Origin: Prostheceraeus crozeri
Taxonomy: Eukaryota > Platyhelminthes > Polycladida > Euryleptidae
DNA: 64,000 nucleotides
Assembly: GCA_907163375.1 (NCBI GenBank)
Contig: CAJQUW010016176.1
Span: forward strand, 124,001 to 188,000
Reading direction: 5' to 3'
Part shown: in pieces, positions 8,784 through 28,865 of the stretch
Numbering within the stretch: position 1 is the first letter of the stretch
How the letters are laid out: every line of letters begins with the position of its first letter
Notes under the pieces: model-generated
Seen by the model: the letters and a program-made list of their open reading frames with translations, nothing else
Databases searched by the model: none
Told to the model about the DNA's origin: nothing
Program-made: the position numbers and the translations under genes

Positions 8784-9176
8784 ATGTCTGTAAAACGGAA
8801 GGCATCTTCTCGTCAATCGAAACGGTCCTTCAAACCTTCAAGTCAGTTTAAAAAGGCGTTGCGAAAGTTAAACAGGATACATGATAATAAGAGGAAGTGT
8901 AAATTGATTCAAAATTCAAGTGATGATTTCATTCGTGATTTAGCTTTTGCAATACACAAATGTCTACCTATTTACAAGCCTCTGTTGAATGCTGGCTCTT
9001 TGAATAGCATAAAAAAGTTTTCAAATCCAAGGAGTAGTGATAAGAAAAGGCGAAACTTAATTCAGCGCGGTGGTGGTGGGTTTCTAAGTATGTTAAATGA
9101 TATTGGAAACAGTATTAATGGTGTAATCAATAGTCCGCTTGGAAGGATTGCAGCAACTGCTGCAATGTTAATATAA
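8784..9176 (+). CDS. Small basic virion-type protein with GG processing motif, unit A
   Basis: 130 aa, very Lys/Arg-rich in residues 1-95, then RGGGGFLSML and a hydrophobic or amphipathic C-terminal tail ending AATAAMLI. Polintons commonly encode a small protein of this layout. Adenain-type proteases cut after Gly-Gly or Gly-X-Gly motifs, and one protease is encoded in this element, so cleavage near the Gly run releasing a membrane-active tail is a reasonable inference. Unit B has an intact copy with about three substitutions. A minor core or pVI/pX-like role is possible, unproven. Confidence 0.65.
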   Translation: MSVKRKASSRQSKRSFKPSSQFKKALRKLNRIHDNKRKCKLIQNSSDDFIRDLAFAIHKCLPIYKPLLNAGSLNSIKKFSNPRSSDKKRRNLIQRGGGGFLSMLNDIGNSINGVINSPLGRIAATAAMLI

Positions 9177-9327
9177 GGTTAGCGAATCATAAAGTGACAC
9201 GTCATCACTTTGATTGATGAGTCATATATAGGTGTATATAAGGAAGACGCTTTAATGATATTTTACCACTTTCAAGTGACAATTCATTTGCGCTGGTTGA
9301 AAGCTCCGAATTAGTACTTGTTGAAAC
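9177..9327 (+). promoter_or_regulatory. Promoter: ACGTCA, TGAGTCA and TATATAAGG
   Basis: Upstream of the 244-aa gene: GTGACACGTCATCAC (9195-9209, a CRE-like half site in a near-palindrome), TGAGTCA at 9218-9224 and TATATAAGG at 9235-9243. The ATG is at 9328. Same combination of bZIP-type site plus TATATAAGG as at 7916-7985. The region is nearly unchanged in unit B (23129-23177). Confidence 0.6.
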
Positions 9328-10062
9328 ATGACTCAGAAAATGTATACAATCAGAGAGGAAGGTGACGCTTTTGAGCAAGATCTCTTGAAGCTTCGTCCGA
9401 CACGAAAGGTGCAAGGGATTGGAAATACGTTCTACTTTCAAACCTTGAATTATGGTGATGATGGCTTTTATCTTCAAGTTCCATTCTTCCACAGTAATGG
9501 TATGTCTACATCAGGGTATAGCAATATGAGACAAATGCGAGTGACTTTTCCAAAATGGCAACAGGTGATTCTTAAAACTATTGACTCTTTCGCGAAAGAA
9601 TGTGTTGAGCTGCCTGAAAGTGCTCCCACTCATTGGAGAAAGGCATTAGAGAAAGGAGTTGGTTATAAGGAATTGCCGGAATTCGATACACTGTTTTTAA
9701 AACTATCTGATCATTTTCAAGCATTCGATCTCTTTACAAACGCGATGGAATGTGAGGATCTCAAACGGGGCCGCTATATGGGCTTAGTTCACGTTACCGG
9801 ACTTTATATTGGCTCACATGGTTCGACTGGTAAAGTCGCATCTTTACAAATGAAGGTTCTTCAACTAGTCTATGAACCACTACCAATTGATAAATGTTTG
9901 ATTAACATTGATAAGACTGCTTCAAGTGATGGGAAGGAAGAGAGCAAAAAGCGAGGTCGGAAATCTAAAGATGGGAATCCTAAATTGAAGTTGAAGCGCC
10001 AAGATGCTGACTTGAAAACTTTCTATAATCCTAATTGTGATGAGGAAACACAAATGTTTTAA
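9328..10062 (+). CDS. Conserved Polinton protein, possible ssDNA-binding, unit A
   Basis: 244 aa. It starts MTQKMYTIREEGDAFE and has a central region ending VTGLYIGSHGSTGKVASLQM, a layout I associate with a conserved protein of invertebrate Polintons. The C-terminal 45 residues are Lys-rich (KKRGRKSKDGNPKLK). The repeated beta-strand pattern and basic tail fit a nucleic-acid-binding protein, possibly ssDNA-binding for protein-primed replication, but no diagnostic motif proves it. Unit B carries a one-base deletion near 23530 that breaks the frame. Confidence 0.6.
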   Translation: MTQKMYTIREEGDAFEQDLLKLRPTRKVQGIGNTFYFQTLNYGDDGFYLQVPFFHSNGMSTSGYSNMRQMRVTFPKWQQVILKTIDSFAKECVELPESAPTHWRKALEKGVGYKELPEFDTLFLKLSDHFQAFDLFTNAMECEDLKRGRYMGLVHVTGLYIGSHGSTGKVASLQMKVLQLVYEPLPIDKCLINIDKTASSDGKEESKKRGRKSKDGNPKLKLKRQDADLKTFYNPNCDEETQMF

Positions 10063-10203
10063 TTTGTAAATGTTTTAATTTGTAAATGTAACTTGAAAGT
10101 TTCTATTCTGAATGTAAATAAACTTGATCTGGAACATGTGTCTGTTTTGTTGTTCTAAGCAAAATTAGCGGGATGATGAGTTTAATGTTAATGGAATTAT
10201 AAG
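10063..10203 (+). other. Spacer with possible polyadenylation signal
   Basis: After the stop at 10062 there is a 16-bp direct repeat (AATGTTTTAATTTGTA twice), then AATAAA near 10118, a candidate polyadenylation signal for the upstream transcript. The next gene starts at 10204. Confidence 0.4.
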
Positions 10204-10797
10204 ATGACAGATTTTCGTCTATTCACTGATCGCACAATGTGTGTCGCTGGACCAAGTCAGTCCGGTAAAACTACATTTGTAACTGAATTGCTACAATATA
10301 GAAATGAAATGTTTAACAAGGAAATTAAGAGAGTCAAATGGTATTATGGAATATTTCAACCACAACTACATTCTGCACTTCGCCAGAAAGGTTATGAGGT
10401 GAAGCAAGGGTTGCCATCAACTGAGGATATCAAAGCAGGTGACTTACTAGTATTAGATGATCTATTACGAGAAAGCAAATCTTCAAAGGATGTAACTGAA
10501 ATGTTCATTCAAACTGCACATCATAGGGAAGCTTTTATTATCTACATCACCCAAAACATCTTCGATGGAGGGAAAGAGCAAAGAACTAGAAGTTTGAATA
10601 CACATTATTTGGCAATATTTAAAAATCCAAGAGATAGCAGTCAGATACATCATCTCAGTAGACAGATATTACCTCAACAACCTAAAGTACTTTCAAAAAT
10701 ATATGAAGATGTAACAAAGAAACCACATGGTTATCTACAGGTATCTAACCCAGGAATGTCCGGAACGACTTCGATTTCGAACAAATATCATACCTAA
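10204..10797 (+). CDS. A32/FtsK-HerA-type genome-packaging ATPase, unit A (C-terminus frameshifted)
   Basis: 197 aa. Walker A is GPSQSGKTT at residues 16-24, Walker B is LLVLDDLL around residue 83, and the downstream FIIYITQN strand fits the A32-like packaging ATPases of Polintons and large DNA viruses. It would pump the element genome into a capsid. After the codons for HGYL the frame departs from unit B: CTACAGGTATC replaces CTATTTATTGATC, a two-base length change, so the last about 20 residues are replaced and the protein ends early. The catalytic core is intact. Confidence 0.88.
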   Translation: MTDFRLFTDRTMCVAGPSQSGKTTFVTELLQYRNEMFNKEIKRVKWYYGIFQPQLHSALRQKGYEVKQGLPSTEDIKAGDLLVLDDLLRESKSSKDVTEMFIQTAHHREAFIIYITQNIFDGGKEQRTRSLNTHYLAIFKNPRDSSQIHHLSRQILPQQPKVLSKIYEDVTKKPHGYLQVSNPGMSGTTSISNKYHT

Positions 10798-10876
10798 TTC
10801 CGCTGAACCAATGACAGTTTTCTCGGTTCACAGTTAGTTTTAAGCAATGTACTTTGTTGCCTTATTATTTTCAAAC

Positions 10877-11527
10877 ATGTCGTATTCAAAGATGGTAGTC
10901 ATTCCTCAAGAGGAGTATGTACAATTGACTACATTACAAAGTGCACAGGAAGTCAAAAATATAGATCAACCTATTACGAATCAACTTAAGGAACTAACAC
11001 AAAAGGATATGGAAATTCAGAAGATTAAGGATCCCTATCGACGAATGCAGTTAGCAGCTGAAAACATTGACGAGAGGCGACAGATTCGTGACAAGTTGCG
11101 ACGATTTATAACCTTGTCAACACCTCGACCATATCGTGTGCGCGCTGAGCGATTATTTGACTTCATTGATCCACATGTGAAGTTCAATGAGAGAGGGGAG
11201 ATAATAGATGAAACAACTGGTGATGTTATTAGAAATAGTCACATAGATGACCTTCTACAATATGCTGTCAGAGATGTAAGGCGAAAACTAGGTGCACCAC
11301 AAGGGTGGACATATTTTCAGAAAATTTTATCTGTTCAAAATGTACCTCACAATATTATTGGAGGACCGACTGTGAATGAATTGGATAAGGGTCACTTACA
11401 AGATGGATCAAAGAGTAAAACACCCACGATGGCGGTCAAGCGAGAGCTTGCAGATCCCGATGATCTGCAACCAAAAAGAGCTACTAGGCGCTCAATGCGT
11501 GTTGCGAAGGAGTATAGTAAATATTAA
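10877..11527 (+). CDS. Conserved coiled-coil Polinton protein, unit A
   Basis: 216 aa from the ATG at 10877 (MSYSKMVVIPQEEY). An open frame extends 10 codons upstream, but the later ATG has the better-looking start and the conserved IPQEEYVQL begins soon after. The first 90 residues are rich in Glu, Lys, Gln and Arg and likely helical; a folded-looking middle follows, and the tail is basic (KRATRRSMRVAKEYSKY). Polintons regularly carry a protein with this start and size; its role is unknown. Unit B is intact with about ten changes. A virion or DNA-associated role is only a guess. Confidence 0.6.
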   Translation: MSYSKMVVIPQEEYVQLTTLQSAQEVKNIDQPITNQLKELTQKDMEIQKIKDPYRRMQLAAENIDERRQIRDKLRRFITLSTPRPYRVRAERLFDFIDPHVKFNERGEIIDETTGDVIRNSHIDDLLQYAVRDVRRKLGAPQGWTYFQKILSVQNVPHNIIGGPTVNELDKGHLQDGSKSKTPTMAVKRELADPDDLQPKRATRRSMRVAKEYSKY

Positions 11528-11561
11528 GCAAATATGAATTAAGCCTTGCCTCTCTCATATC

Positions 11562-11888
11562 ATGTCGTTACAAAAATTTTGCTGTTGTTTGAAATCTGCG
11601 CTCGAAGGCAAAGGAGAAGAGGGCATAGAGGTTGATATCAATTGTGTTAGCAGTTGCTGTGCGAGTAATACGCGTGCAAATCAGAACAAAGACGATGAGT
11701 ACAGCAGTGAAACTCAGAAAGATTTATTACGACTTAAATCATCCCGCAAGTTTCAGTCGTCCGGAGGTTCTAGCTCGTGCAGCAGGTGTGGGAATAGAGA
11801 AAGTCAAGAAGTGGTTGAGGAGTCAACCGACTTACACTCTTCACAAAAATGCAAGAAAGCGGTTTCCAACAAGAAAATATGTTGTTAA
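11562..11888 (+). CDS. Small Cys-rich ORF overlapping the integrase start, unit A
   Basis: Starts MSLQKFCCCLKSALEG and contains a second Cys cluster, CVSSCCAS. In unit B the same ORF stops after 46 codons with a TAA that overlaps the integrase ATG (ATGAGTAA). In unit A that stop is changed (GAGTAC), so the frame runs on to 108 codons antiparallel in sense to nothing but out of frame with the integrase. The short form is probably the real one. Cys clusters could be palmitoylated or bind metal. No family is recognised. Confidence 0.4.
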   Translation: MSLQKFCCCLKSALEGKGEEGIEVDINCVSSCCASNTRANQNKDDEYSSETQKDLLRLKSSRKFQSSGGSSSCSRCGNRESQEVVEESTDLHSSQKCKKAVSNKKICC

Positions 11889-12783
11889 CAATATAGATAG
11901 TCAATGGCAAGCGGACTTGGCTGACATGCAACAGATATCACAGTACAATGATGGCTATAAATACATCTTAACCGTAATAGATATTTTATCTCGCTATGCT
12001 TGGGCACGTGCGCTGAAATCTAAACGAGGACCAGAAGTTGAAGCGGCTTTTCAGAGCATTTTCGATGAGGGGCGTGTTCCGCAAAGAATACAGACCGATC
12101 AAGGGAAGGAATTCGAAAACTCTCATGTTCGAAGTCTCCTTAAAAGTCATAATGTGGAATTGTTTAGTGTCAAAAGTGCTTATAAAGCTGCCATGGTTGA
12201 GAGGTTCAATCGCACACTGAAGACAAAAATATGGCGCTATTTCACTGCAAAAAATACACATGTTTGGGTAGGTGAGCTGCAGAAATTTGTTAAGAATTAC
12301 AATGAAAGCTACCATCGAATCATTAAGATGAAACCAGTTGATGTTACCCCAGATAATGCGATGGATGTATGGCTTCGATTGTATGATAAGAAAGCGAAAA
12401 ACATTTCCAATGAAAAGAAAATTAATGTTGGTGATAGAGTTCGGATTTCAAAGGTCAAGTCTACATTTGAGAAGGGGTATCTACCTAATTGGACTGAAGA
12501 AGAGTTTTTTGTGGATGAAGTAAATACAAAATTTAGGCCCACCATGTATAAATTAATAGATTACCATGGCAATCCAATTGAAGGAAAATTTTACTCTTAT
12601 GAATTGCAAGTAGTAGACAGAAGTGAAGAGGTGTATATGATTGATAAAATAATTAGGAAGAAAGGTCATGGCAATCAAAGAAAATATCTAGTTAAATGGA
12701 AAGGATATCCTGATTCATTCAATAGCTGGATAACGCACCAGGATCTACAAAATGTGGAGATGGGAGACACTCGTAACTTTTAA
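11695..12783 (+). CDS. Polinton integrase (rve/DDE) with chromodomain, unit A, intact
   Basis: 362 aa from ATG at 11695. The catalytic core shows the DDE triad: D in WQADLADM, D in QTDQGKEF, E in MVERFNRT. N-terminal residues 1-70 look like a helical DNA-binding region. The C-terminal 45 residues are a chromodomain (VYMIDKIIRKKG ... YLVKWKGY ... SWITHQDL). It performs insertion and makes the 6-bp target duplication seen at the element ends; the chromodomain may steer targeting to modified histones. This copy is complete, unlike unit B. An upstream in-frame extension to 11632 is not needed. Confidence 0.93.
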   Translation: MSTAVKLRKIYYDLNHPASFSRPEVLARAAGVGIEKVKKWLRSQPTYTLHKNARKRFPTRKYVVNNIDSQWQADLADMQQISQYNDGYKYILTVIDILSRYAWARALKSKRGPEVEAAFQSIFDEGRVPQRIQTDQGKEFENSHVRSLLKSHNVELFSVKSAYKAAMVERFNRTLKTKIWRYFTAKNTHVWVGELQKFVKNYNESYHRIIKMKPVDVTPDNAMDVWLRLYDKKAKNISNEKKINVGDRVRISKVKSTFEKGYLPNWTEEEFFVDEVNTKFRPTMYKLIDYHGNPIEGKFYSYELQVVDRSEEVYMIDKIIRKKGHGNQRKYLVKWKGYPDSFNSWITHQDLQNVEMGDTRNF

Positions 12784-12823
12784 GCTAATATAGCATGTGA
12801 CTTCTTCCATATATGAGTTTAAC

Positions 12824-14401
12824 ATGTCTACTAACTTCAATATCATTCTTCCAAGCAATAGCAACCCCAAGATATTCCCAAGTAACAAACCATCTCTATA
12901 CTCTGTTGAATTCGCTAATCCAATTACTCTGCATGGACCCCATGAAGTTGCTCTGACTGAAATTACTTATTACAACGATATCAGTTTGCTAAAGAACAAC
13001 TATTTTGAATTACATAAAGAAGTGCGAGAGAAGGATGATTGCTTTCGCATATTTCAAAATAGTCTACATGGTACATGGGCTTTTCATCATCTAACTTTAC
13101 ATCCTTTTTCAACATCTTTACCATCTGTTCAAAACATGATTAAAATTCAAAAGGCATTTGCAACGTCAACTTTTGATTCTAAGGTTCCCACAATGAGCTT
13201 GCAAGATACAGAAAAGGAAATCGGTAGAATGTTTGAACGAATAAATGATCTCTTCAAGCTGACTTTGAATAAATTCTACAAACCAGTCATAAAGGGGTCA
13301 ACAAAATTGATGAAGGAAGGGAAGCATGTTCTTCTTGTATTAGGTAAGGATTTGAGTCATACTTTTGGGTATTCCAGAACAACTTTCTCATCAAGGTATT
13401 GGTACAATGGACGTGGGTGGAATTCGGAGAGGAAAGTCACTGATTTTAAATGTAGAGTTGTGCCATTGTATGCATTACAAAGAAGGAGCATCCGAGTAAA
13501 AAATAAATTTGAGGTCATTAGAAGTGTTGAAGACTTTGCAAGAAAGTTTCAAGGATCAGTGCCAGAAACGTTAATGACTTGTGAATATAAGAAAGAGAAA
13601 GTAACTTTATTTACTGTTGAAACGGAGGCAGAATTTATTGTTTTTACTAAAAAGACACCATTGGAAAAGTCTGAGTCCGCTGTTATTGAATTTGGATCTG
13701 AAATGATTGGGATGTTTAAGGGCCTTGAAAGCGCACCTTGGTTGACAGAATTAAATGATACATTCAAGGTTCAATTGTCCTCTTCTAAACTCAAAGCATC
13801 AACAAATGCTTCATGGGATATCCACGTATACAGCGAAGACATATCGGGTGATGAATTGTCTACTTCCAGTGAACTTGTAAAAAGAGTTAATTTGAACATT
13901 GAAAGCTTGAAAACGCCATCTGAATTGTGTACAAAGTTAAATGAGTTTGGTGTAGATTACCTTGATGCAGATGAATATCACTTTTCTTATGACCCACATA
14001 AGAAACGCATGATTCTAAAGGTAGGGAAGAACTCTCTTATCAAGCTGGATAGCGTGTTAACGACCACATTGGGATTCTCAAAATCAACTATTTATGAAGG
14101 TACATCAATAGGCGATACAACCCCATCACTAGAGCGTGATATAAGTAACTTATACGTCTATTGTAACATTATTGAATATACAAGGGTTGGCGACATTGAG
14201 GCCCCACTTCTGCGCACATTTCCTCTCTCATCCGTAAGGAAGCAACTAATCAATCGAGAATTTTTTAATACAATGTATCTACCAATCAGCCGAAATTTCA
14301 TCAATAGAATTGACATATCAATTCATGATGACGCAGGAGAAGTAGTACCGTTCTGTGGTGGTGTTACTGTTTTGACCCTACATATTAGGTCACGAGAATA
14401 A
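12824..14401 (+). CDS. Candidate minor capsid (penton-like) protein, unit A
   Basis: 525 aa from ATG at 12824 (MSTNFNIILPSNSNPKIFP). The N-terminus, with ILPSNSNPKIFPSNKPSLY followed by a strand-rich SVEFANPITL...EVALTEI, is typical of a large protein found in most Polintons next to the major capsid gene and usually assigned to the minor capsid or penton. The C-terminal part (ISRNFINRIDISIHDDAGE) is strand-rich too. The assignment rests on recalled family layout and gene position, not a structural match, so it is tentative. Unit B has an internal TGA. Confidence 0.6.
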   Translation: MSTNFNIILPSNSNPKIFPSNKPSLYSVEFANPITLHGPHEVALTEITYYNDISLLKNNYFELHKEVREKDDCFRIFQNSLHGTWAFHHLTLHPFSTSLPSVQNMIKIQKAFATSTFDSKVPTMSLQDTEKEIGRMFERINDLFKLTLNKFYKPVIKGSTKLMKEGKHVLLVLGKDLSHTFGYSRTTFSSRYWYNGRGWNSERKVTDFKCRVVPLYALQRRSIRVKNKFEVIRSVEDFARKFQGSVPETLMTCEYKKEKVTLFTVETEAEFIVFTKKTPLEKSESAVIEFGSEMIGMFKGLESAPWLTELNDTFKVQLSSSKLKASTNASWDIHVYSEDISGDELSTSSELVKRVNLNIESLKTPSELCTKLNEFGVDYLDADEYHFSYDPHKKRMILKVGKNSLIKLDSVLTTTLGFSKSTIYEGTSIGDTTPSLERDISNLYVYCNIIEYTRVGDIEAPLLRTFPLSSVRKQLINREFFNTMYLPISRNFINRIDISIHDDAGEVVPFCGGVTVLTLHIRSRE

Positions 14402-14444
14402 GGCTTTACGCTATTGTGACTTCCATAGTTATTCAATAGTCATA

Positions 14445-14927
14445 ATGACAGGCATTTACAGTAGACCATCATATCAGAGCGGTTATCCCGTGTTTGTTGG
14501 AGGTAGACGACAAGTTGGAGGAGGCATATTTGGTGCACTAAGACGTATGGTTCTTCCAACACTCAAAAAGTATGGCGTACCAATCATGAAGCGTGTTGGA
14601 AGCAGGGCTTTAGATTTTGGTGCAAATGTTGCAGCTGATGCGCTTCAAGGTGAGGATATCGGTGAATCTATGAAAATACGCGCGCAGCAATCTGCCATAG
14701 ACGCATTAGATGATTTAACAAAGACGAGACGTACAGTTCGGAAGAAGCGTAGGAAGTCAAGACAAGTTGGATCAGGCCGAGTTACTAAGCAAAGACGCAG
14801 GAAAAGTAAAAAGCCGACTAGAGCAGCACGTTCTAAATCTAGACGTCGAGTGAAAACAAGAAAGCGCAAACGAAATTCCACAGCTACTAGAAACAAGTCA
14901 AAACGAAGGAAGACAACATATTTGTAG
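14445..14927 (+). CDS. pVI/pX-like basic virion protein, unit A
   Basis: 160 aa. A GRRQVGGGIFGAL segment near residue 21 is followed by an amphipathic helix-rich part (residues 30-85) and then an extremely Arg/Lys-rich tail ending SKRRKTTYL. Adenovirus pVI and core proteins have Gly-Gly cleavage sites, amphipathic helices and basic stretches, and Polintons have equivalents. Likely roles are membrane disruption and packaging of DNA in the particle. Unit B is identical apart from one Ile to Met change. It lies between minor and major capsid genes. Confidence 0.7.
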   Translation: MTGIYSRPSYQSGYPVFVGGRRQVGGGIFGALRRMVLPTLKKYGVPIMKRVGSRALDFGANVAADALQGEDIGESMKIRAQQSAIDALDDLTKTRRTVRKKRRKSRQVGSGRVTKQRRRKSKKPTRAARSKSRRRVKTRKRKRNSTATRNKSKRRKTTYL

Positions 14928-14937
14928 AGCTAATACG

Positions 14938-16221
14938 ATGCAGAGTATCAATTCGGCTTTGTGTTTCTTCGATTCTCCCCCTCATCAGACAGACATCATC
15001 TCCTCAACAATTGTAGACATAGTCCCCACAACAAATATCGATGGTAACCAGCAGCCTATTCAGTTTGATATACCTGCCAATCCTCAAGATTATATTGACT
15101 GTCAATCCATTGATTTAGAGTTGTGTATACAAATTAAGAAGACTGATGGTACAAATATCGATTCATCCAAGGATAAAGTGGGATTAGCAAATCTTCCTAT
15201 TGCCAGTCTGTTCTCAGATGTGTATCTAATATTGAATGACAAACAGATTGAAGGAGGGGATCGAGCATATCCATATGGAGCATATATACATACAATGACT
15301 CAATTTCAAAAGCAAGCTAAACAGTCACACTTGCAAGTTTCTGGGTGGTATGATGATCAGCAAGGGAAATTTGATGATGTCTCAAATACAGGGTTGAAAA
15401 GACGAATGGATTTAACAGCGGATTCAAAGGAATTATACTTGAAAGGACCCGTCTATCTTGATTTCCTTCGTCAATCTAGATATCTGCTATCACAGGTTAA
15501 AATGCAAATAAAATTTATTCGTGCAAATCCTGAGTTCGCGTTAATGGCTTTTGGAGCTACAAACTATCAAGTCAACATAAGTAATGCCGTGCTCAATGTA
15601 AGGCGAGTAACAATGAACCCGTCAGTCATCAACGAGCATGCGACAGGATTGAGGAAAAACAATGCAATATATCCAGTTAATCACAGTGTGTTGACAAACT
15701 TCACAATTGGTGCGGGATCATCCTCACATGCCTACCCAAATCTTTTTCCCACTGCAATGCCAAAGGCGGTGTATATCACATTTGTGGAAAATGAGGCATT
15801 CATTGGTGCTTTTGAAAAGAATCCATTCAATTTCCAACACTTTAATGTTAGCAAACTAGCACTCTATCAGGATGGGAAATTTGTATCTTGCAAAGCATAT
15901 GAGCCTAATTTCAAAGATGGCAAATTCGCACGTGAATATGGTTCTATTTTCACCGCCCTCAACATGTTTAATACAGACGATTCAAATGGAATTACAATGG
16001 ATATGTACAAGAATGGCTACTTCTTCATTATGTACAACCTCACAGCAGATGCAGATCTAGGTGGTGAAAGCGTAGGAGTTACAAAGCCTGGAAATCTACG
16101 ACTGGAGGTATCATTTGAGTCACCTTTGAAGAAAACAATTACTTGTCTCATTTATGCTATCTATGATAGCAAAGTTGAGATAACAAGAATGAGAGACGTG
16201 ACTGTCAGCTATCAGAGATGA
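14938..16221 (+). CDS. Major capsid protein, double jelly-roll type, unit A
   Basis: 427 aa, resembling the proteins annotated as F54H12.2-like in invertebrate genomes, which derive from Polinton major capsid genes. The sequence is strand-rich throughout, with an N-terminal DIVPTTNIDGNQQPIQFDIP and a C-terminal LEVSFESPLKKTITCLIYAIY. Position directly before the protease, with a 4-nt ATGA overlap, suggests they are co-transcribed. The unit B copy is identical at protein level and differs by one silent C/T change seen. Such proteins assemble pseudo-hexagonal capsomers. Virion formation by this element is not shown. Confidence 0.85.
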   Translation: MQSINSALCFFDSPPHQTDIISSTIVDIVPTTNIDGNQQPIQFDIPANPQDYIDCQSIDLELCIQIKKTDGTNIDSSKDKVGLANLPIASLFSDVYLILNDKQIEGGDRAYPYGAYIHTMTQFQKQAKQSHLQVSGWYDDQQGKFDDVSNTGLKRRMDLTADSKELYLKGPVYLDFLRQSRYLLSQVKMQIKFIRANPEFALMAFGATNYQVNISNAVLNVRRVTMNPSVINEHATGLRKNNAIYPVNHSVLTNFTIGAGSSSHAYPNLFPTAMPKAVYITFVENEAFIGAFEKNPFNFQHFNVSKLALYQDGKFVSCKAYEPNFKDGKFAREYGSIFTALNMFNTDDSNGITMDMYKNGYFFIMYNLTADADLGGESVGVTKPGNLRLEVSFESPLKKTITCLIYAIYDSKVEITRMRDVTVSYQR

Positions 16222-16682
16222 GTAACTTAAGCAACATAGAAATCTTGAGGAAAATGAGGAAAGCTCATCCCTACTCCAAGACAATATTTCTCAATGTCTT
16301 TTCTAGAGATAATTTACCTGATTCAATTCCTTTCTATCCTTGTTCACTTATCATCAATACGGATACCAACAATCTTCCCGGAAAACATTGGATTGCTGTA
16401 TACATCAATCGTTATAAAGTTGCCGAATATTTTGACTCTCTTAATCAACCTCGTTTACATGATATCGCATTATGGATGAACAGGTTTTCCTGGACTGTTA
16501 GGAAAGTGACATCGTTCCCACTTCAAAGTAATACATCTCTAATGTGCGGTGGCTATGTACTCTATTTTGTCAACGAGAGACCATTGAAAAATAACTGTAA
16601 AAGTGCTTTAGAACTATTTTCAAAAAACTGTGATAAAAATGATGTAATTCTTACTAAATATGTTGAAACAGTTTTGAAATAA
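16218..16682 (+). CDS. Adenain-type cysteine protease, unit A, intact
   Basis: 154 aa. The catalytic set of adenovirus endopeptidase can be read in order: His57 in GKHWIAVY, Asp73 in EYFDSL, Gln103 in PLQSNT, Cys110 in LMCGGYVLYF. It would process virion precursors at Gly-Gly motifs, such as those in the 130-aa and 160-aa proteins. It overlaps the capsid stop by 4 nt (ATGA). This copy is intact; unit B has lost one C at codon 69. Slightly shorter than adenovirus protease (about 204 aa) but normal for Polintons. Confidence 0.92.
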   Translation: MSNLSNIEILRKMRKAHPYSKTIFLNVFSRDNLPDSIPFYPCSLIINTDTNNLPGKHWIAVYINRYKVAEYFDSLNQPRLHDIALWMNRFSWTVRKVTSFPLQSNTSLMCGGYVLYFVNERPLKNNCKSALELFSKNCDKNDVILTKYVETVLK

Positions 16683-16832
16683 AGTTTTATGTTGTATCAT
16701 TAACTTGCTCTCTTTTTTTCCAAAACAAGGGTTTATAAGGAAAACAAAAAACATGCTCATATTTCATTATCTATTCACATATATACAAAAAACATGTTCA
16801 CATTTCATTATCTATCCACATATATACAAAAT
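16683..16832. other. Convergent 3' region between protease and TBP-like gene
   Basis: Short AT-rich spacer between the end of the + cluster and the end of the - cluster. It contains a near-direct repeat of about 45 bp (CATTTCATTATCTATYCACATATATACAAAA twice; first half shown in fewer than 20-base pieces: TTTCATTATCTAT and CACATATATACAAAA). AATAAA at 16680 may serve the + transcripts. Confidence 0.4.
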
Positions 16833-17402
16833 CTACAATTTGGTTTTCATGAAACATTTTTTCAAATCACATATGATGGGAGGCACATCACTTATGTCTT
16901 TAATGCCGGTTATCACAATCTTTCCATTATGGAACACATGAACATGATATGGATGCCAGTTAGTCAATTGAGCTGCTGGAAATAACTCCACTTCATAAGT
17001 TAGATTATGTGATGATGTAACTTTACGGAAATCATAGTGATAGTGTAATTCACATAACACGGTCATTGTCTTCACTTTCCAATCAGATAATGAATCACCA
17101 AGTAAATGTTCCAAAGTTAAGTGTAGATATGAGAGATCACCCTCCATGACCCTTCCAATACATTGGATTGTTCCATTTGGAAAGAATAGGATAGTGAGAG
17201 ATCTATCCTTCCTCTGAATCCTCCATGTTAACATTGAGGGTCTTCCAAGATGTAAGCTCGTTGTCGGCTTCAATTTGCGTTTTATCAGTAACCATTGTTT
17301 TCGGTTGGGTATATTCCTCTCGATCTCTTGTAGATTGAGTTTTGACTTTGCTTTTGTAGTTAACATCCGATTTACAACTTCCAACCGTTTGATGTCCTCC
17401 AT
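16833..17402 (-). CDS. TBP-like (TATA-binding-protein fold) protein, unit A
   Basis: 189 aa. The C-terminal two thirds read as two TBP-type repeats. Repeat 1 has MLTWRIQRKDRSLTILFFPNG followed by TIQCIG; repeat 2 has YEVELFPAAQL then VHVFHNGKIVITGIKD. TBP repeat 2 in eukaryotes has the pattern Y-E-x-E-L-F-P, a 14-residue gap, then a strand ending G-K-[IV]-V-[IL]-T-G-x-K, which this matches closely. The likely role is promoter recognition for element genes. The N-terminal 60 residues are basic and overlap the upstream gene in another frame. The protein is identical in both units, which argues against decay. DNA binding is inferred. Confidence 0.75.
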   Translation of the reverse strand: MEDIKRLEVVNRMLTTKAKSKLNLQEIERNIPNRKQWLLIKRKLKPTTSLHLGRPSMLTWRIQRKDRSLTILFFPNGTIQCIGRVMEGDLSYLHLTLEHLLGDSLSDWKVKTMTVLCELHYHYDFRKVTSSHNLTYEVELFPAAQLTNWHPYHVHVFHNGKIVITGIKDISDVPPIICDLKKCFMKTKL

Positions 17403-17763
17403 CTTTAATGAATGACGTTATCTGTGGTAGTATCTCCCTTGTAAAGGTTTCCCATGTGACGTCACTGAAACGAAAAAATCGATATTCAACATCTTCACGT
17501 TTTGGTGAACAGACGTATAGTTTGACTGATGAATCACACTTTATCCATACCTTGTCATCGAGAGGAATCTTGATCCGAGTCTTATGGTTGTCAATGAGAT
17601 CCGCAAAGTCTTTCAGTGAAGGCAATGAGTCAATACTAATGCAAACGCCACGATGTTTTCGATCACTATTTGCTATTGAATGACGAAATGCTATTCTTTT
17701 AGAATTTGTTATGTGAACGTTTTGAACGTCACTAAGTTTCCATGTTCTAATGTAATGAGGCAT
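17203..17763 (-). CDS. Possible PC4-like protein overlapping the TBP-like gene, unit A
   Basis: 186 aa from ATG at 17763 (MPHYIRTWKLSD); the frame is open a little further upstream without ATG. Residues about 65-120 (RIKIPLDDKVWIKCD ... YRFFRFSDVTWETF) have the strand-strand-strand then [IF]xxSxxxW layout of the PC4/p15 transcription coactivator ssDNA-binding domain, but this is a weak resemblance. The C-terminal 60 residues are hydrophilic and overlap the first 66 codons of the TBP-like frame. Identical in both units. It may be a separate gene, or be joined to the TBP-like frame by splicing or frameshifting. Confidence 0.5.
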   Translation of the reverse strand: MPHYIRTWKLSDVQNVHITNSKRIAFRHSIANSDRKHRGVCISIDSLPSLKDFADLIDNHKTRIKIPLDDKVWIKCDSSVKLYVCSPKREDVEYRFFRFSDVTWETFTREILPQITSFIKDGGHQTVGSCKSDVNYKSKVKTQSTRDREEYTQPKTMVTDKTQIEADNELTSWKTLNVNMEDSEEG

Positions 17764-17825
17764 GTTCCGAAAGCTATGTTTCAAATTTAAGTTTAATGTT
17801 TGCCTAAAGTTTGTTATTTTATTAG

Positions 17826-17995
17826 CTCAACATATCGGAATGATGTTGAGTACAAATTCTTCACATATTCATTCACATTAGGACTACCTATTTATTAGTA
17901 ATCATTTCTACATATCGGAAAGATGTAGAAATTTCAATTTTAGTAAGACTACTTATGTATTAGTAAGTGTTGCTACATGTCGGAAGATGCAGCAA
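17826..17995 (-). promoter_or_regulatory. Three stem-loops with a shared CGGAA loop, unit A
   Basis: Stem-loops at 17826-17850 (CTCAACAT/ATGTTGAG), 17904-17932 (ATTTCTACAT/ATGTAGAAAT) and 17970-17995 (TTGCTACAT/ATGCAGCAA, one mismatch). Loops on + read ATCGGAATG, ATCGGAAAG and GTCGGAAG. Stems differ in sequence but keep pairing, while the loop is constant. They lie between the polymerase stop and the start of the possible PC4-like gene, both on -. They could be RNA elements in a 3' or 5' UTR, or DNA sites. The block recurs at 31752-31921. Confidence 0.65.
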
Positions 17996-18042
17996 TCGCA
18001 AGATCTATTACAAGTGGAATATTATATTGTTTTTATTTAGAC

Positions 18043-21000
18043 TTATTCTACATCACCTGTGACAGGAAGGCATCTCCTTCTCTTCGACGGTGGGGGAAGA
18101 CCTAGGCTATAGTGTCCATATGGTAATGATAAATTTTTATCCAGCCAACAGCGCTTATCCTCCCAAAGTGAAAGACCTCGCTTCCTAAATGATTTTGTGC
18201 TAACTATGTGATTTTTTGAATTTATAATTGTCATATCTTCAGTTGTATCATTCTCACTATAATAGACACTCCTATAGTCATCATGTTTCAATTTTTTAAC
18301 TGCTGCTCTCTGAATTCCTTTTGCACGTTTGATGCTATGATTCGTAGAGTCTAGATATTTCATTGAATACATTTTCGGTTTTAGTAGGATCATTTCCTCA
18401 AGCAACTTTCCAGCACACTCATCCTTAAAACAACCTAATCTAGCTTTGTTTGTAGTTGAATATAGTCGGTGGTGACTGTCATAGTTTGAAGAGTCAAACT
18501 TTTCACCGAAGTATAGAAGTATATCTTCCAGACGGACAGATGGTGATGTGTATAAACATAGGAAGAAACTGTCGGTATCACCTCCACAAAGCCGCGTTCT
18601 ATTTATCAGTGGACATCCTTTTAGATCATTGTAATATAATTGATACATTTCCAACTTACTATAGTCAAGTACTGCTTGACCAACATATATTAATTTATTT
18701 AAAACTATTGAAGGTTTGTACATTTCCATACCAACCAGATCTTCATCAAATATTTTGTGTTGAACATAGAGAGGATGATTTGACAATTTCAGTAGTTGTT
18801 TCTCATTGTTGACTAGTTTAAATTTTTTCCTTCTCCTTACATTTTCCATTGTTTTACCATATAAAGAATTATTTTTCAATTTGTAGAATGACTTTTCGAA
18901 GTCAGTGCTTGATTGAGCCCTCTTTTGAGAGTTCATATCAATGTATGTTTTTAACCAAGGCTTTTGTGTGAATTTTATGCCACTATGAATCTTCTTGATT
19001 CTCATGCCCATGCTCAAGTAAAATTTTAAAATTGAGTAGTGGACTACATAATTTTCCCTATCAAATTGATGGAGCAGAAGTTTCTTGATAGAAGAAAAAT
19101 GTGTATTTGGTCTTACTTTTTCATATAGATTTTTCATATAGTGTGAAAACATTCTCTTTTCAATCATCTGCATTTCTGGAGCTAATGGGAAATCGGCAGT
19201 GTCATCATGAATGGCTGCAGGATACTTTAAAAATCTAAATCAAAAATGTAGCCGATTTCACCATTAACATCTATATTTTGAACATTTTCTTCATTTAAAA
19301 AATTATCTAATTCACTTTCATTCAACCATTTGAAATTTGAGTGGGGTAGATTTCTACTGAGTGAAGAACCGTAAAGGTTATTAACATCTAAGTAGGTCAA
19401 ATGTCGACTTTCATGTGTATTATTTCCTAATTCTTCAATGCGTGCACGCGCTCGGTGAATGTTGGTGAAAGTCATACCCCCTCTAATTCCTCGTTCAAAT
19501 AGATTGTACATATTTTCATCTTGTATGTAGTGTGGGGGATCATTGGAAGAGAAATTTAGTGCTGAGGTAAAGCTAAGATGTGGGAGACTGACAAAATGTA
19601 CAGGGTCGACTTCATCCTCACGTTGACTCAATGCCCTAAACACTTCAAATATGTCTGCCAACAATAAAACATCTAACTTCAGATATGCCAGCATGTAATC
19701 ACCAAATGTGCTGCAAATAAATTCAATCCACGCCTTGTTAGCGTGTTCATATTCACTATCGGAACAGTGCTCACGAGTAAGATCATTATAGAATTCAAAT
19801 TGTGGTGGTAGACAGTCTTCCGTCAACGTGTTTAAGTTTTTGAAGTATGAATATGGAAACACTCCCTTTTGATATAAAACATTATCACTTAATTGTAGAA
19901 ATTCTACCCTTAATGTCTCTACATGCTCATACGTTTGCAAGCCCTTGGCTAATTCACTCAAGGATGCACTTAGAAATTGATATGAGTCTAAGAATTTTAG
20001 TTTAAAGTATACTGTCTTCCCTTTGTATTCATTTACAGGGACACTGGCGGATAAAGTTATATATTTTTCAGCAGTTGCTGCTACAACATCTAATTTCCAA
20101 GACTTCATTCTTCCAATCGCTTTATAGCAAACGATGTGACTATCATAATTTTTAAAATTGTGGAAAAATATGGGGAGCTCCCGTCTGTTAAGTCTTAACC
20201 GGAGATTGCATTTCCTACATAATGTTTGCCTATATCGTCCGGTGATATGATCATGATCACGAACTTTTATGACTTCATCGCTGAATTTCAATTTACATTT
20301 GTTGCAACATTCTGCATTCTCGTGGCGTGCTTTTTCATCCGCTGACAGTGACATTGGCTGCCTAGTTGTTGCACATTGGTTGTCATATAAGTCTTGGGCT
20401 ACAGTTTCTAAGTGGTGCAAGAAACTAATAATGCAATTTTCTCCCTCAAAGAGGTAATACTTGTTTTCAAATTTCGATTGAAGGGCATTATGCCAGACAT
20501 GATAAGCTCCAATAGCCGCAGGTTTATGTATTTTATTATCAATGTAGCACTCTATATCTGCATAAATTACTAAAGGAGGACTTAGTTGATATTCCATGCT
20601 ACTTGTTAGTACTTTTAGATCTGATGGCATTTTTTCTATTTGCGCTTTTCCTCGAATGCAAAACTGGAAATGTCGTTCTAGTGTTGTCTTATATGTGAAT
20701 GACTGAGTGCATCTTTCGCAGAAGTATTTAAGTCTTTATAAAGTTCTCCTATACAATCTTGACAGCTTAGGAATTCCACAATAGTGTGCTGCTCCATTGT
20801 TTAGAATTATCAAAATATTAACCGTTTGCCTACCAGTAAAGTCCGAACTTTGTATCGAACACCTTTGAGTCCATTTTCATAAAAGTGAATGTTAATTTTA
20901 ATATCATTATTTTTCTCAAATTTTGGAATATCTTTGATTGATACTGGTGTGGAAATGCCTTCCATATTTAGCTCAGATGTCCACTTACTATATGATTTTA

Positions 21001-21643
21001 CTTCATTCCTTGAATAAGGTACTTCATTATAATGCAATATTGATAAAACTGCATATAGGAAGCAATCATTTGCATTTGAATTAACATTAATGACAGCTTT
21101 AGAGTTTTTTAACTTCTTTGGTAGAGGAAATGATTGTCCACCTGACAGTACTGGACTTGTTATTACATTGAACTCTATATTTTGTACATAATCTATAATC
21201 CAATTGCTACCCTTTTTTGTGAAGGCTTCAATATGATTTATTAGAGTATTTAGATGATCCTGAAACCAAGCATCATAGTCATAAATATAGTTTGAGGATG
21301 ATGAGGTAAAGTGTGCGAGAAAAGTTTCTTCTTCTTGAGGATTAGAACGGACATAACGAATTTGTGCAATCAGGCGACCGCGCAATTGATAGGTCCTTAG
21401 TAAGTCAGACACTAAATTCCCTAACATGGAACGCATGCTTTCTATGAATGATGTTATGTCCACAGTAGGTGTTGTTGGCGTGATATCATACACACGTGCA
21501 TGGCCATTGAGTGCGCTTTCGCTGAGACTAACAGTTCCATAGTTATTATGCATATTCATCTCACTATTTGTGTTATGTACATTCAGTGCTGTAAAAATCT
21601 CCTTATAAAGTGACTTCACAGAAGGAGTATTGCAGAAAGACAT
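18043..21643 (-). pseudogene. DNA polymerase B, unit A, broken
   Basis: Same gene as 31976-35833 but with lesions. A two-base length change near 19225-19230 splits the polymerase domain into frames 18043-19173 and 19227-20630. A TAA arises near 20740 where unit B has a Lys-Arg segment, and the stretch near 20843-20855 differs in length from unit B. The N-terminus is replaced beyond about 21584 by scrambled sequence, so the zinc fingers are missing. The polymerase motifs themselves are still readable: DVNNLYG (A), KLKNNSLYGK (B), GGDTDSF (C). Mutation or assembly error are both possible. Confidence 0.85.
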
Positions 21644-22260
21644 TTTGTATGTTAGTTGAACTGCGTTACATGTTTTAAAAGGAGATCCTTCTCTATTTTG
21701 ATTAGCCTTTGAATTTGTCTACTTGTTATGTACCTTTGACCCTTCTATCAGTCACTGTATTATTGCATGATGAGTCATCATGCCTCTTAAGATTATCCAT
21801 CCTATTGTGTCTTTGTGTGACACTTTCTATATAAGGAGGACATTGTACCGTTCTATTTCAAGCATAATTTGAGGCTAATACAAAATTCAGCATGTCGTTC
21901 ACTACCAAATTCCATCAATAATTTTTCGAAGTCCAAAACTTCGACGGGCATATATTTGTATTCTGCCGGTGAATTAATGGTTTATAGCGGATTTGGTCCC
22001 ATTTCAATAATTTTCGAAGTCAACTCTCTTCACGGGCATATATTTTTTATTTGCCGTGAATATAACTGGTTATAAAGCGGATTTGGTGGATCTGATGAGG
22101 AAATAGTGAACACTTTTCCGCTGCGGAGAGGACGTTGTGGTGCAGAGAATGTGATGAGGATCGTGAACAAGCCCTTATACACATCTTGCAAGATTTTGGC
22201 TCAATGAAGTCATTTCGCCCACTAGCTCAAACGGATGTTGATCTGATACTCTCTCTTGTT
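21584..22260. other. Scrambled junction between units A and B
   Basis: Up to about 21584 unit A matches the unit B polymerase closely. Beyond it, similarity to the polymerase zinc-finger region becomes patchy, mixed with pieces of the UBA-RING 3' end (AACTGCGTTA, ACTTGTTATGTACC, CAGTCACTGTAT) and with GCATGATGAGTCATCATGC fused to polymerase sequence (CTCTTAAGATTATCCATCCTATT). Between 21890 and 22260 the 207-aa gene contains many small indels and a partial local duplication of about 100 bp. No TIR or target duplication is present. The texture resembles a poorly resolved consensus of two different paths. Confidence 0.7.
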
Positions 22261-22589
22261 GGTGCAGCATTATCCAACGGAAACTCAACACATGTCTCCA
22301 TGACATTATCACATCCAGCTACTATGACGAGAAGGGTGACAAATGTAAATTGGACTTATTCAGTGGACCGCCATCAGTAAGCATCAATGTGGCTGCTCAA
22401 GGACATTCTGAGGTAATCAGTTTGCGGGCATACTATGCCAATATTTTAAAGACTTTCCATTCAAAGCCCTGCTGTATGTGCTGTCCAATTTCAAAACATC
22501 TAATGAAAGACATTGAGCAGCTCATAACTGCTACAAATCAGACTCTAGCCGCTGTGAGTGTATATCAGTTTCCCTCTACAACTTGTTAA
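21893..22589 (+). pseudogene. 207-aa unknown protein, unit B, broken
   Basis: Counterpart of 8032-8655. The 5' two thirds contain multiple frameshifts and a repeated segment around the CGAAGTC...CACGGGCATATAT stretch. The last 79 codons (22350-22589) are open and differ from unit A at a few positions (T-S-K for L-K, QTLAAV for ETLADV). The upstream TATATAAGG (about 21831) is retained. Confidence 0.75.
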
Positions 22590-22717
22590 GTGTTTTATGA
22601 AAATTTATAAGTACCAGCAACAAACTCTGTGTGAATGCTTGTAAACTTTTGTATATAATGTTGTAAGTACTAAGCAAAAATTGTAATTGTATTATCCATT
22701 TCCATATTAGAATAAAA

Positions 22718-23110
22718 ATGTCTGTAAAACGGAAGGCATCTTCTCGTCAATCGAAACGGTCCTTCAAACCTTCAAGTCAGTTTAAAAAGGCGTTGCGAAA
22801 GTTAAACAGGATACATGATAATAAGAAGAAGTGTAAATTGATTCAAAATTCAAGTGATGATTTCATTCGTGATTTAGTTTTTGCAATACACAAATGTCTA
22901 CCTATTTACAAGCCTCTGTTGAATGCTGGCTCTTTGAATGGCATAAAAAAGTTTTCAAATCCAAGGAGTAGTGATAAGAAAAGGCGAAACTTAATTCAGC
23001 GCGGTGGTGGTGGGTTTCTAAGTATGTTAAATGATATTGGAAACAGTATTAATGGTGTAATCAATAGTCCGCTTGGGAGGATTGCAGCAACTGCTGCAAT
23101 GTTAATATAA
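22718..23110 (+). CDS. Small basic virion-type protein, unit B
   Basis: 130 aa, intact copy of 8784-9176 with Arg to Lys, Ala to Val and Ser to Gly changes. The Gly run RGGGGFLSML and hydrophobic tail are kept. Same inferred role as the unit A protein. Confidence 0.63.
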   Translation: MSVKRKASSRQSKRSFKPSSQFKKALRKLNRIHDNKKKCKLIQNSSDDFIRDLVFAIHKCLPIYKPLLNAGSLNGIKKFSNPRSSDKKRRNLIQRGGGGFLSMLNDIGNSINGVINSPLGRIAATAAMLI

Positions 23111-23128
23111 GGATAGCGAATCATAAAG

Positions 23129-23177
23129 TGACACGTCATCACTTTGATTGATGAGTCATATATAGGTGTATATAAGG
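23129..23177 (+). promoter_or_regulatory. Promoter of the 244-aa gene, unit B
   Basis: Copy of 9195-9243 with the ACGTCA, TGAGTCA and TATATAAGG elements unchanged. Confidence 0.55.
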
Positions 23178-23261
23178 AAGACGCTTTAATGATATTTTAC
23201 CACTTTCAAGTGACAATTCATTTGCGCTGGTTGAAAGCTCCGAATTAGTACTTGTTGAAAC

Positions 23262-23995
23262 ATGACTCAGAAAATGTATACAATCAGAGAGGAAGGTGAC
23301 GCTTTTGAGCAAGATCTCTTGAAGCTTCGTCCGACACGAAAGGTGCAAGGGATTGGAAATACATTCTACTTTCAAACCTTGAATTATGGTGATGATGGCT
23401 TTTATCTTCAAGTTCCATTCTTCCACAGTAATGGTATGTCTACATCAGGGTATAGCAATATGAGACAAATGCGAGTGACTTTTCCAAAATGGCAACAGGT
23501 GATTCTTAAAACTATTGACTCTTTCGCGAAGAATGTGTTCAGCTGCCTGAAAGTGCTCCCACTCATTGGAGAAAGGCATTAGAGGAAGGAGTTGGTTATA
23601 AGGAATTGCCGGAATTCGATACACTGTTTTTAAAACTATCAGATCATTTTCAAGCATTCGATCTCTTTACAAACGCGATGGAATGTGAGGATCTCAAACG
23701 GGGTCGCTATATGGGCTTAGTGCACGCGACCGGACTTTATATTGGCTCACATGGTTCGACTGGTAAAGTCGCATCTTTACAAATGAAGGTTCTTCAACTA
23801 GTCTATGAACCACTACCAATTGATAAATGTTTAATTTACATTGATAAGACTACTTCAAGTGATGGGAAGGAAGAGAGCAAAAAGCGAGGGCGGAAATCTA
23901 AAGATGGGAATCCTAAATTGAAGTTGAAGCGCCAAGATGCTGACTTGAAAACTTTCTATAATCCTAATTGTGATGAGGAAACACAAATGTTTTAA
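23262..23995 (+). pseudogene. Conserved 244-aa protein, unit B, frameshifted
   Basis: Counterpart of 9328-10062. One A is missing near 23530 (GCGAAGAATG against GCGAAAGAATG in unit A), so the first frame ends at 23582. The downstream part is open again from 23606 to 23995. Apart from this the copy is about 98 % alike by eye. A one-base loss in a run of A could be a sequencing error. Confidence 0.8.
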
Positions 23996-24136
23996 TTTGT
24001 AAATGTTTTAATTTGTAAATGTAACTTGAAAGTTTCTATTCTGAATGTAAATAAACGTGATCTGGAACATGTGTCTGTTTTGTTGTTCTAAGCAAAATTA
24101 GCGGGATGATGAGTTTAATGTTAATGGAATCATAAG

Positions 24137-24772
24137 ATGACAGATTTTCGTCTATTCACTGATCGCACAATGTGTGTCGTTAGACCAAGTCAGTCCGGTA
24201 AAACTACATTTGTAACTGAATTGCTACAATATAGAAATGAAATGTTTAACAAGGAAATTAAGAGAGTCAAATGGTATTATGGAATATTTCAGCCACAACT
24301 ACATTCTGCACTTCGCCAGAAAGGTTATGAGGTGAAGCAAGGGTTGCCATCAACTGAGGATATCAAAGCAGGTGACTTACTAGTATTAGATGATCTATTA
24401 CGAGAAAGCAAATCTTCAAAGGATGTAACTGAAATGTTCATTCAAACTGCACATCATAGGGAAGCTTTTATTATCTACATCACCCAAAACATCTTCGATG
24501 GAGGGAAAGAGCAAAGAACTAGAAGTTTGAATACACATTATTTGGCAATATTTAAAAATCCAAGAGATAGCAGTCAGATACATCATCTCAGTAGACAGAT
24601 ATTACCTCAACAACCTAAAGTACTTTCAAAAATATATGAAGATGTAACAAAGAAACCACATGGTTATCTATTTATTGATCTAACCCAGGAATGTCCGGAA
24701 CGACTTCGATTTCGAACAAATATCATACCTAATTCCGCTGAACCAATGACAGTTTTCTCGGTTCACAGTTAG
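24137..24772 (+). CDS. A32/FtsK-type packaging ATPase, unit B, P-loop altered
   Basis: 211 aa with the full C-terminus that unit A has lost. The first Gly of Walker A is Arg: RPSQSGKTT instead of GPSQSGKTT (residue 16), together with Ala to Val at 15. Gly21, Lys22 and Thr23 and Walker B LLVLDD are kept. The first P-loop Gly is strongly conserved, so ATP binding may be impaired; this is inference. So neither unit has a fully normal ATPase gene. Confidence 0.85.
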   Translation: MTDFRLFTDRTMCVVRPSQSGKTTFVTELLQYRNEMFNKEIKRVKWYYGIFQPQLHSALRQKGYEVKQGLPSTEDIKAGDLLVLDDLLRESKSSKDVTEMFIQTAHHREAFIIYITQNIFDGGKEQRTRSLNTHYLAIFKNPRDSSQIHHLSRQILPQQPKVLSKIYEDVTKKPHGYLFIDLTQECPERLRFRTNIIPNSAEPMTVFSVHS

Positions 24773-24811
24773 TTTTAAGCAATGTACTTTGTTGCCTTAT
24801 TATTTTCAAAC

Positions 24812-25462
24812 ATGTCGTATTCAAAGATGGTAGTCATTCCTCAAGAGGAGTATGTACAGTTGACTACATTACAAAGTGCACAGGAAGTCAAAAATATAGA
24901 TCAGCCTATTACGAATCAACTTAATAAACTAACACAAAAGGATATGGAAATTCAGAAGATTAAGGATCCCTATCGACGAATGCAGTTAGCAGCTGAAAAC
25001 ATTGACGAGAGGCGACAGATTTGTGACAAGTTGCGACGATTTATAACCTTGTCAACACCTCGACCATATCCTGTGCGCGCTGAGCGATTATTTGACTTCA
25101 TTGATCCACATGTGAAGTTCAATGTGAGAGGAGAGATAATAGATGAAACAACTGGTGATGTTATTAGAAATAGTCACATAGATGACCTTCTGCAATATGC
25201 TGTCAGAGATGTAAGGCGAAAACTAGGTGCACCACAAGGGTGGTCATATTTTCAGAAAATTTTATCTGATCAAAATGTACCTCACAATATTATTGGAGGA
25301 CCGACTGTGAATGAATTGGATAAGGGTCACTTACAAGATGGATCAAAGAGTAAAACACCCACGATGGCGGTCAAGCGTGAGCTTCATGATCCCGATGATC
25401 TGCAACCAAAAAGAGCTACTAGGCGCTCAATGCGTGTTGCGAAGGAGTATAGTAAATATTAA
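24812..25462 (+). CDS. Conserved coiled-coil Polinton protein, unit B
   Basis: 216 aa from ATG 24812, intact copy of 10877-11527. Changes include Lys-Glu to Asn-Lys near residue 38, Arg to Cys in the DERRQI segment, Arg to Pro in RPYRV and Ala to His near the C-terminus. Function unknown as in unit A. Confidence 0.6.
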   Translation: MSYSKMVVIPQEEYVQLTTLQSAQEVKNIDQPITNQLNKLTQKDMEIQKIKDPYRRMQLAAENIDERRQICDKLRRFITLSTPRPYPVRAERLFDFIDPHVKFNVRGEIIDETTGDVIRNSHIDDLLQYAVRDVRRKLGAPQGWSYFQKILSDQNVPHNIIGGPTVNELDKGHLQDGSKSKTPTMAVKRELHDPDDLQPKRATRRSMRVAKEYSKY

Positions 25463-28855: not shown

Positions 28856-28865
28856 AGCTAATACG

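Follow-up and report, generated by a model that had tools for sequence, protein, structure and literature searches.

Introduction

Polintons are thought to stand near the base from which numerous DNA viruses of eukaryotes arose, and their hallmarks are termini that begin with AG and a 6-bp duplication of the target site. A gene for a TATA-binding protein (TBP) goes unmentioned in the main texts on Polinton/Maverick elements and adintoviruses that we searched: both TBP and TATA are absent from the main text of PMC11071308, PMC8097293, PMC11071296, PMC10120064, and PMC10328495, TBP is absent from that of PMC3671162, and TATA from that of PMC4028283. No paper on a Polinton TBP stood among the matches listed in our literature search, the scope of which excluded the original adintovirus paper and PMC7786948 (a match to "polinton" and "TATA-binding"). 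Two papers that match "polinton" and "TBP" (PMC11464507, PMC12085832) concern, in the portions available, the TBPs of giant viruses. The view of an earlier note on this DNA, that TBP is not a standard Polinton gene, agrees with these main texts.

Viral TBPs are already known from large DNA viruses. The herpesvirus TBP mimics, BcRF1 of EBV and ORF24 of KSHV, are described in the available parts of two papers as serving late TATT promoters together with the host RNA polymerase II (PMC4893493, PMC12529657). TBP-family proteins of dsDNA viruses are likewise described, in excerpts of the respective papers, for giant viruses, for the asfarvirus (pB263R), and for mirusviruses (PMC10132985, PMC7221094, PMC11464507, PMC12085832, PMC5825884); the excerpt of PMC10132985 places a TBP in 59% of mirusvirus genomes, and TATA-binding proteins are also reported, in an extract of a paper on Cymbomonas, from heliorhodopsin elements that putatively derive from mirusviruses. 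In a survey of viral folds (PMC11410667), TBPs are listed for large dsDNA virus families, three known and four additional ones; the available part of this survey does not mention polintons or adintoviruses. According to the accessible part of PMC7221094, viral TBPs tend to lose the acidic residues that contact TFIIB and to accompany a viral TFIIB-like gene; apart from poxviruses, nearly every virus with a TBP in that study was found to have a gene for a TFIIB-like protein too.

Here, we describe a Polinton that carries a TBP-family gene within a 64,000-nt window, by which we mean the whole stretch of DNA that was analyzed. The encoded protein is, like the herpesvirus mimics, a TBP-like protein of a virus-like system; it is a bare TBP of 189 aa, whereas KSHV ORF24 carries additional domains at both termini. 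A TBP in such an element would show how Polintons control their own genes, and its presence here, together with related proteins in public sequence data, suggests that these elements may steer the gene-reading machinery of the host to their own genes.

The Element Is a Polinton with an Internal Tandem Duplication

A single element of 34.9 kb (approximately 21 kb without its internal duplication) was found at positions 6937–41816. It is bounded by 396-nt terminal inverted repeats, the left of which (6937–7332, forward strand) begins with AGTAGTG and is 99.5% complementary to the right (41421–41816, reverse strand), and it is flanked by two copies of a 6-bp target-site duplication, AGCGTA, read directly at 6931–6936 and repeated at 41817–41822. 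By its termini, its target duplication, and its genes, the element is a Polinton. The earlier note had given it this identity, and the AG-starting inverted repeats, the 6-bp duplication, the polymerase motifs, the rve/chromodomain integrase, and the adenain-like protease all bear it out; these features are shared with Polinton/Maverick elements and adintoviruses.

The genes on the forward strand begin with a 169-aa RING-finger protein (7412–7921; PF13920, E 1.6e-10) and a probable packaging-type ATPase of 197 aa (10204–10797), which showed a weak match to the PHROG 6891 ATPase (E 6.7e-4) and weak AAA and Pox_A32 matches in Pfam that fell under the cut-off. The rve integrase has 362 aa and a C-terminal chromodomain (11695–12783; PF00665, E 3.1e-13; PF00385, E 1.5e-9), and an adenain/C48-like cysteine protease of 154 aa (16218–16682) matched the cysteine protease S273R of PDB 6lj9 at E 6.7e-4, its C48 match being under the cut-off. 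Between these two genes lie a 525-aa protein (12824–14401), which we take to be a probable minor capsid or PY-type protein, and a 427-aa protein (14938–16221), presumably the major capsid protein as judged from Polinton capsid sequences; neither of these capsid candidates had a significant match in the Pfam, PHROG, or NCBIfam searches. On the reverse strand, a family B DNA polymerase (PolB) of 1285 aa is encoded at 31976–35833. Its assignment was made from polymerase motifs read by eye (DxNNLYG, KNNSLYGK, and GGDTDS), and none of the PolB family models in Pfam matched. C2H2 fingers were present at its N terminus, and an Endonuclease VII-like patch was located at residues 527–569 (E 1.1e-5). 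One stretch of this polymerase is OTU-like by its motif. A PolB with an OTU-like stretch is a feature of adintoviruses as well, according to the available part of PMC11071296. The region 36000–41400, which separates PolB from the right inverted repeat, is partly GC-rich (0.447 at 36–38 kb) and holds three open reading frames (ORFs), one with weak coiled-coil matches, one Cys-rich at its N terminus, and one with a TATA box of its own. A Pfam search of 19 ORFs of the element returned no RNA polymerase or TFIIB family match at E 1, a search that a strongly diverged TFIIB could escape.

The earlier note had described two identical units. Two units are indeed present and their TBP genes are identical; the units themselves are parts of one Polinton with a tandem duplication of approximately 13.9 kb, in which 8064–21660 and 21997–35597 are 98.25% identical. 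The genes listed for unit 1 are open with the exception of PolB, a copy of which (18043–21643, reverse strand) is split over three frames and lacks the N-terminal part. The second, duplicated unit (21742–35597) retains open frames for PolB, TBP, the gene overlapping TBP, and the 130-, 226-, 160-, and 427-aa genes. Its 207-, 244-, 108-, and 525-aa genes, its integrase, and its protease are broken, the end of the ATPase is altered, and the RING gene is absent. Identity between the units reached 99.8–100% per 500-nt bin at 14500–18000 versus 28430–31930, compared with 96.7–99.2% in the other bins of 8.5–21.5 kb, apart from one bin of 100% at 18.5 kb and lower values at both ends. Recent exchange or gene conversion, or an effect of the assembly, is a possible source of the near-identity at 14.5–18 kb.

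A TBP-Family Protein Is Encoded in Both Units

The gene in question lies on the reverse strand at 16833–17402 in unit 1 and at 30759–31328 in unit 2, with zero nucleotide differences between the two, so that the 189-aa frame and its identical twin are present as the earlier note had claimed, with the same protein and the same DNA. Against Pfam, the protein matched PF00352 with 49 bits (curated cut-off 22.9; E 5.6e-13), and the sole other entry appeared at E 0.14, below its own cut-off. Searching the PDB sequences with phmmer up to E 10 yielded 36 matches, of which 35 are chains of TBP or of a TBP fusion (E 7.5e-5 to 0.0078); the remaining one is unrelated (E 0.5). The TATA-box-binding protein models of NCBIfam also matched, the best at E 3.6e-7 and every one under its curated cut-off. 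When a 17-row profile was compared with the sequences of solved structures, the matches were TBPs from many organisms, the best at E 2.4e-9. PF00352 was further matched by all 35 rows of an alignment (A2) chosen among 121 TBP proteins.

Both repeats of the fold were recovered. A 113-row family profile aligned with human TBP at a probability of 98.1 (E 7.4e-14), the 157 aligned columns spanning both repeats. The N- and C-terminal halves of the profile also aligned with each other, at a probability of 86 (E 5e-6). The best AlphaFold2 model of the protein had a pLDDT of 95.0 and a pTM of 0.86 (pLDDT 90.9–95.0 among the five models), and its strands and helices follow the saddle order of two TBP repeats, the one exception being the helix that follows strand 1 in the second repeat, which DSSP did not call. 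The TBP signature and the two half repeats that had been read by eye in the earlier note thus stand well above chance, and two of the checks it had proposed, profile search and structure prediction, led to TBP, with no better match elsewhere in the family and profile searches and with the modeled elements in TBP order.

The resemblance could in principle be due to chance or to the fold only, and in single-sequence searches repeat 2 was the stronger TBP match, with repeat 1 weak when taken alone. Against this explanation, the Pfam, profile, and structure-model analyses each indicate TBP, with both repeats covered, and we consider its probability close to negligible. From its sequence and its predicted structure, the membership of the 189-aa protein in the TBP family is close to certain.

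The Family Is Distant from the Cellular TBPs Compared

A search with the single protein identified 16 relatives, and a profile search at E 0.001 gave 187 matches, 120 of the 187 being listed. The sources of these relatives are labeled ena, jgi, lgn, and mgnify, and two are also or only labeled ncbi. From 121 proteins, 8 shorter than 115 aa were excluded, and the resulting alignment of 113 rows (A5) comprises 112 relatives and the window protein. Scans of viral contigs for TBP, PolB, the integrase, the overlap partner, and the capsid candidate confirmed no relative; scans of genome contigs for TBP likewise confirmed none, and phage records held none for TBP. A TBP gene in a Polinton context is shown by this element only, and the relatives are known as proteins alone.

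The Polinton TBP shares with the human, yeast, and archaeal proteins the two repeats and the predicted topology. Its sequence identity with the TBPs of human, yeast, and two archaea is nonetheless only 20–21%, a value to be compared with the 37% between human and Pyrococcus TBP. In a tree of the 84 of 113 rows with at least 165 aa, together with 4 cellular TBPs, the family did not group with the cellular sequences: a branch with support of 100/100 split the 84 family rows from the 4 cellular rows.

These distances bear on the idea that a gene for TBP, or one related to it, was recently captured from the host and is carried as a functionless passenger. Eukaryotes do possess TBP paralogues from which such a passenger could be drawn. 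The low identity and the separate branch speak against a recent capture, as do the continuous frame and an overlap with the upstream gene that is also found in a relative, the two proteins of which show 46% and 56% identity to those of the window. We therefore regard such a recent passenger as highly improbable.

The TBP Gene Overlaps a Conserved Upstream Gene

At 16833–17763 and 30759–31689, two conserved genes of the same strand share 200 nt in different frames. The upstream member encodes 186 aa on the reverse strand (17203–17763 in unit 1 and 31129–31689 in unit 2, with the same DNA), and the TBP gene starts inside it. Its protein has seven database relatives, 43–99% identical along its length, and the window protein had no Pfam match at E 10. 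The best of five structure models had a mean pLDDT of 69.2 (the other four, 50.3, 45.8, 45.8, and 37.2); in it, residues 1–120 form two beta4-alpha repeats, mostly above pLDDT 80, and the disordered tail is the part that overlaps TBP. This model presumably resembles a nucleic-acid-binding fold of the Whirly-like kind. A likeness to PC4, first noticed by eye, was not supported by profile comparison: with either of two PC4 sequences, hhalign gave a probability below 1%.

The overlap was traced in relatives by asking, for each partner protein, which TBP residues its shifted frame could not possibly yield, and counting these misfits. For the pair in the window the count was 0 in 66, as it must be, and the database pair P0127 and P0002, with 46% and 56% identity to its counterparts in the window, gave 1 in 75, compared with a mean of 57 and a minimum of 48 among shuffled sequences. 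All 40 pairings of eight partners with five TBPs of full N terminus fell under the lowest of their own 50 shuffles. Because P0127 and P0002 are located on different contigs (5,093 and 2,082 nt), the single misfit may be a strain difference. Since the overlap can be traced in this relative pair, the arrangement is older than the present element.

Repeat 2 Is Well Kept and Repeat 1 Is Altered

Residue equivalences were taken from an alignment of the window protein with cellular TBPs. The yeast residues have roles in intercalation, DNA contact, and TFIIB contact. Some of these roles follow the available parts of PMC12529657 and PMC7221094, the former numbering the acidic pair E184 and E188. Relative to yeast TBP, the residues kept are N69 (N11 here), F116 (F74), E186 and E188 (E137 and E139), L189, F190, and P191 (L140, F141, and P142), F207 (F157), K211, V213, and T215. 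Eight positions, F74, Q80, F141, P142, H153, F157, G160, and G166, were invariant in 113 of 113 rows. E137 was found in 110 of the 113 rows and E139 in 107, the other 6 having Asp; N11 was present in 76 of the 77 rows having a residue there. The Polinton TBP thus has in common with cellular TBPs the phenylalanines F74, F141, and F157, the residue N11, and the TFIIB-contacting Y-E-x-E-L-F-P loop with its canonical acidic pair.

Several DNA-contact residues have been lost from repeat 1. Of the four intercalating phenylalanines of canonical TATA binding, three are present; the fourth, at the site of yeast F99, is replaced by the Pro of a GRP motif, and Pro occupies this column in 92 of 93 rows with a residue there. 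Yeast V122 is replaced by Gln80 in all 113 rows, and in the window protein T124 is replaced by Ile and K120 by Thr; these changes, together with that of F99, make ordinary TATA binding doubtful. In addition, yeast N159 is Thr in the window protein (Asn in 85 of 113 rows), and yeast R196 and the basic residues of helix 2 are lost from it. Repeat 2 mostly resembles a working TBP half and repeat 1 is altered, as judged from these alignments. As a naturally occurring TBP of which only one half is changed, the protein would lend itself to studies of how TBP selects its DNA sequence.

This combination differs from those of other viruses. KSHV ORF24 keeps four phenylalanines and lacks the acidic TFIIB residues, according to the available part of PMC12529657, whereas the Polinton TBP has three phenylalanines and the acidic pair. 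Unlike an orthogonal viral TBP that works with its own TFIIB, the Polinton protein keeps this pair, and no TFIIB match at E 1 was seen among the 19 ORFs of the element. A TBP in a Polinton with no match to TFIIB or RNA polymerase at that threshold, and with the surface for host TFIIB kept, would represent a far smaller system of another design. We propose that the Polinton TBP is most likely a promoter factor in which the interface with host TFIIB is kept and the DNA specificity is changed.

Two other roles can be weighed against these residues. In the first, the protein would be a decoy that has kept the TFIIB surface and lost promoter binding, tying up host TFIIB and damping host transcription to the benefit of the element. 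The near-invariance of the acidic pair fits such a role, as does the loss from repeat 1 of the equivalents of yeast F99, V122, T124, and K120; three intercalating phenylalanines kept in 113 of 113 rows and N11 in 76 of 77 would be superfluous in a pure decoy, which we regard as unlikely. In the second, the protein would bend DNA for replication, packaging, or target choice and take no part in transcription. The TBP fold occurs in nontranscription proteins as well, the gene is grouped with PolB on the reverse strand, and it adjoins the 186-aa gene, whose product has a best model that looks like a nucleic-acid-binding fold. Under DNA bending, nearly invariant TFIIB-contact residues have no evident reason to persist, and we consider this role rather improbable. 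A promoter role exercised through host TFIIB seems to us, from the residues kept and lost, somewhat probable.

Promoters and a Possible Two-Stage Programme

The upstream regions of 16 genes were examined for TATA boxes, and TATAWAR was found within 130 nt upstream of five of them, o207, o130, o244, PolB, and o153b, against an expectation of 0.079 per window (P about 0.006). The 16 windows omit the ORFs at 36010–36555 and 37650–38111, both of which are without TATAWAR, and the fraction is 5 of 18 if these are included. The TATATAA boxes sit 39–93 nt upstream of PolB and the four other genes; that of PolB (35866–35872, reverse strand) begins 39 nt upstream of its start. Within the same 130 nt, no TATAWAR was found at the ATPase, integrase, 525-aa, capsid-candidate, protease, and TBP genes, and there was none upstream of the RING gene, which is not a virion gene.

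A different shared pattern was first noticed by eye in the upstream regions. In a k-mer count, three 8-mers occurred in 6 of the 16 upstream windows compared with 0.8–1.1 expected, and RGCWAA was present within 80 nt upstream of 8 of the 16 genes, with an unadjusted P of 1e-5 for a pattern picked after inspection; two of the TATA genes have it too. When motifs were sought blindly, the actual upstream windows scored 33.7 and the best of 20 Markov simulations 33.4, a marginal difference, and 13 of 20 sets of within-element windows, which could overlap one another, outscored the actual ones. We thus regard a shared RGCWAA promoter motif as a candidate and a lead. Scans for Rfam families, tRNAs, and bacterial promoters and terminators returned nothing useful.

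On these observations, a scheme for the proposed promoter factor can be outlined. The host TBP would first read the TATA-box genes of the element, PolB among them. The element's own TBP would then bind its own core promoters through the well-kept repeat 2 and the altered repeat 1, and its acidic pair would recruit host TFIIB. Host RNA polymerase II would in this way be brought to the TATA-less genes, which include the capsid candidates, the ATPase, the protease, and the integrase, in a manner analogous to the herpesvirus TBP mimic at late genes. The TATA-less virion genes are perhaps the target of the changed specificity, and the division into early and late genes is an assumption made from function. 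Such a two-stage programme, in which host TBP serves the TATA genes and the element TBP serves the TATA-less virion genes (candidate RGCWAATA) as a dedicated late non-TATA code, is offered tentatively and appears to us more doubtful than the promoter role itself. Equally tentative is the wider part of the same reading, that an ancient and widespread line of promoter factors exists in small selfish elements and makes use of host TFIIB and RNA polymerase II.

Flanking DNA

The DNA on both sides of the Polinton contains further repeats. Near the left end of the window, an inverted repeat with 347-nt arms was located at 420–1167. Outside the Polinton on the right, a reverse transcriptase domain (PF00078, E 3.5e-17) was found at 53124–53588 and is probably a retroelement remnant. 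The region 58882–64000 holds large inverted repeats, with 1386-nt arms at 99.6% identity and a second pair at 60265–61088 and 61247–62070.
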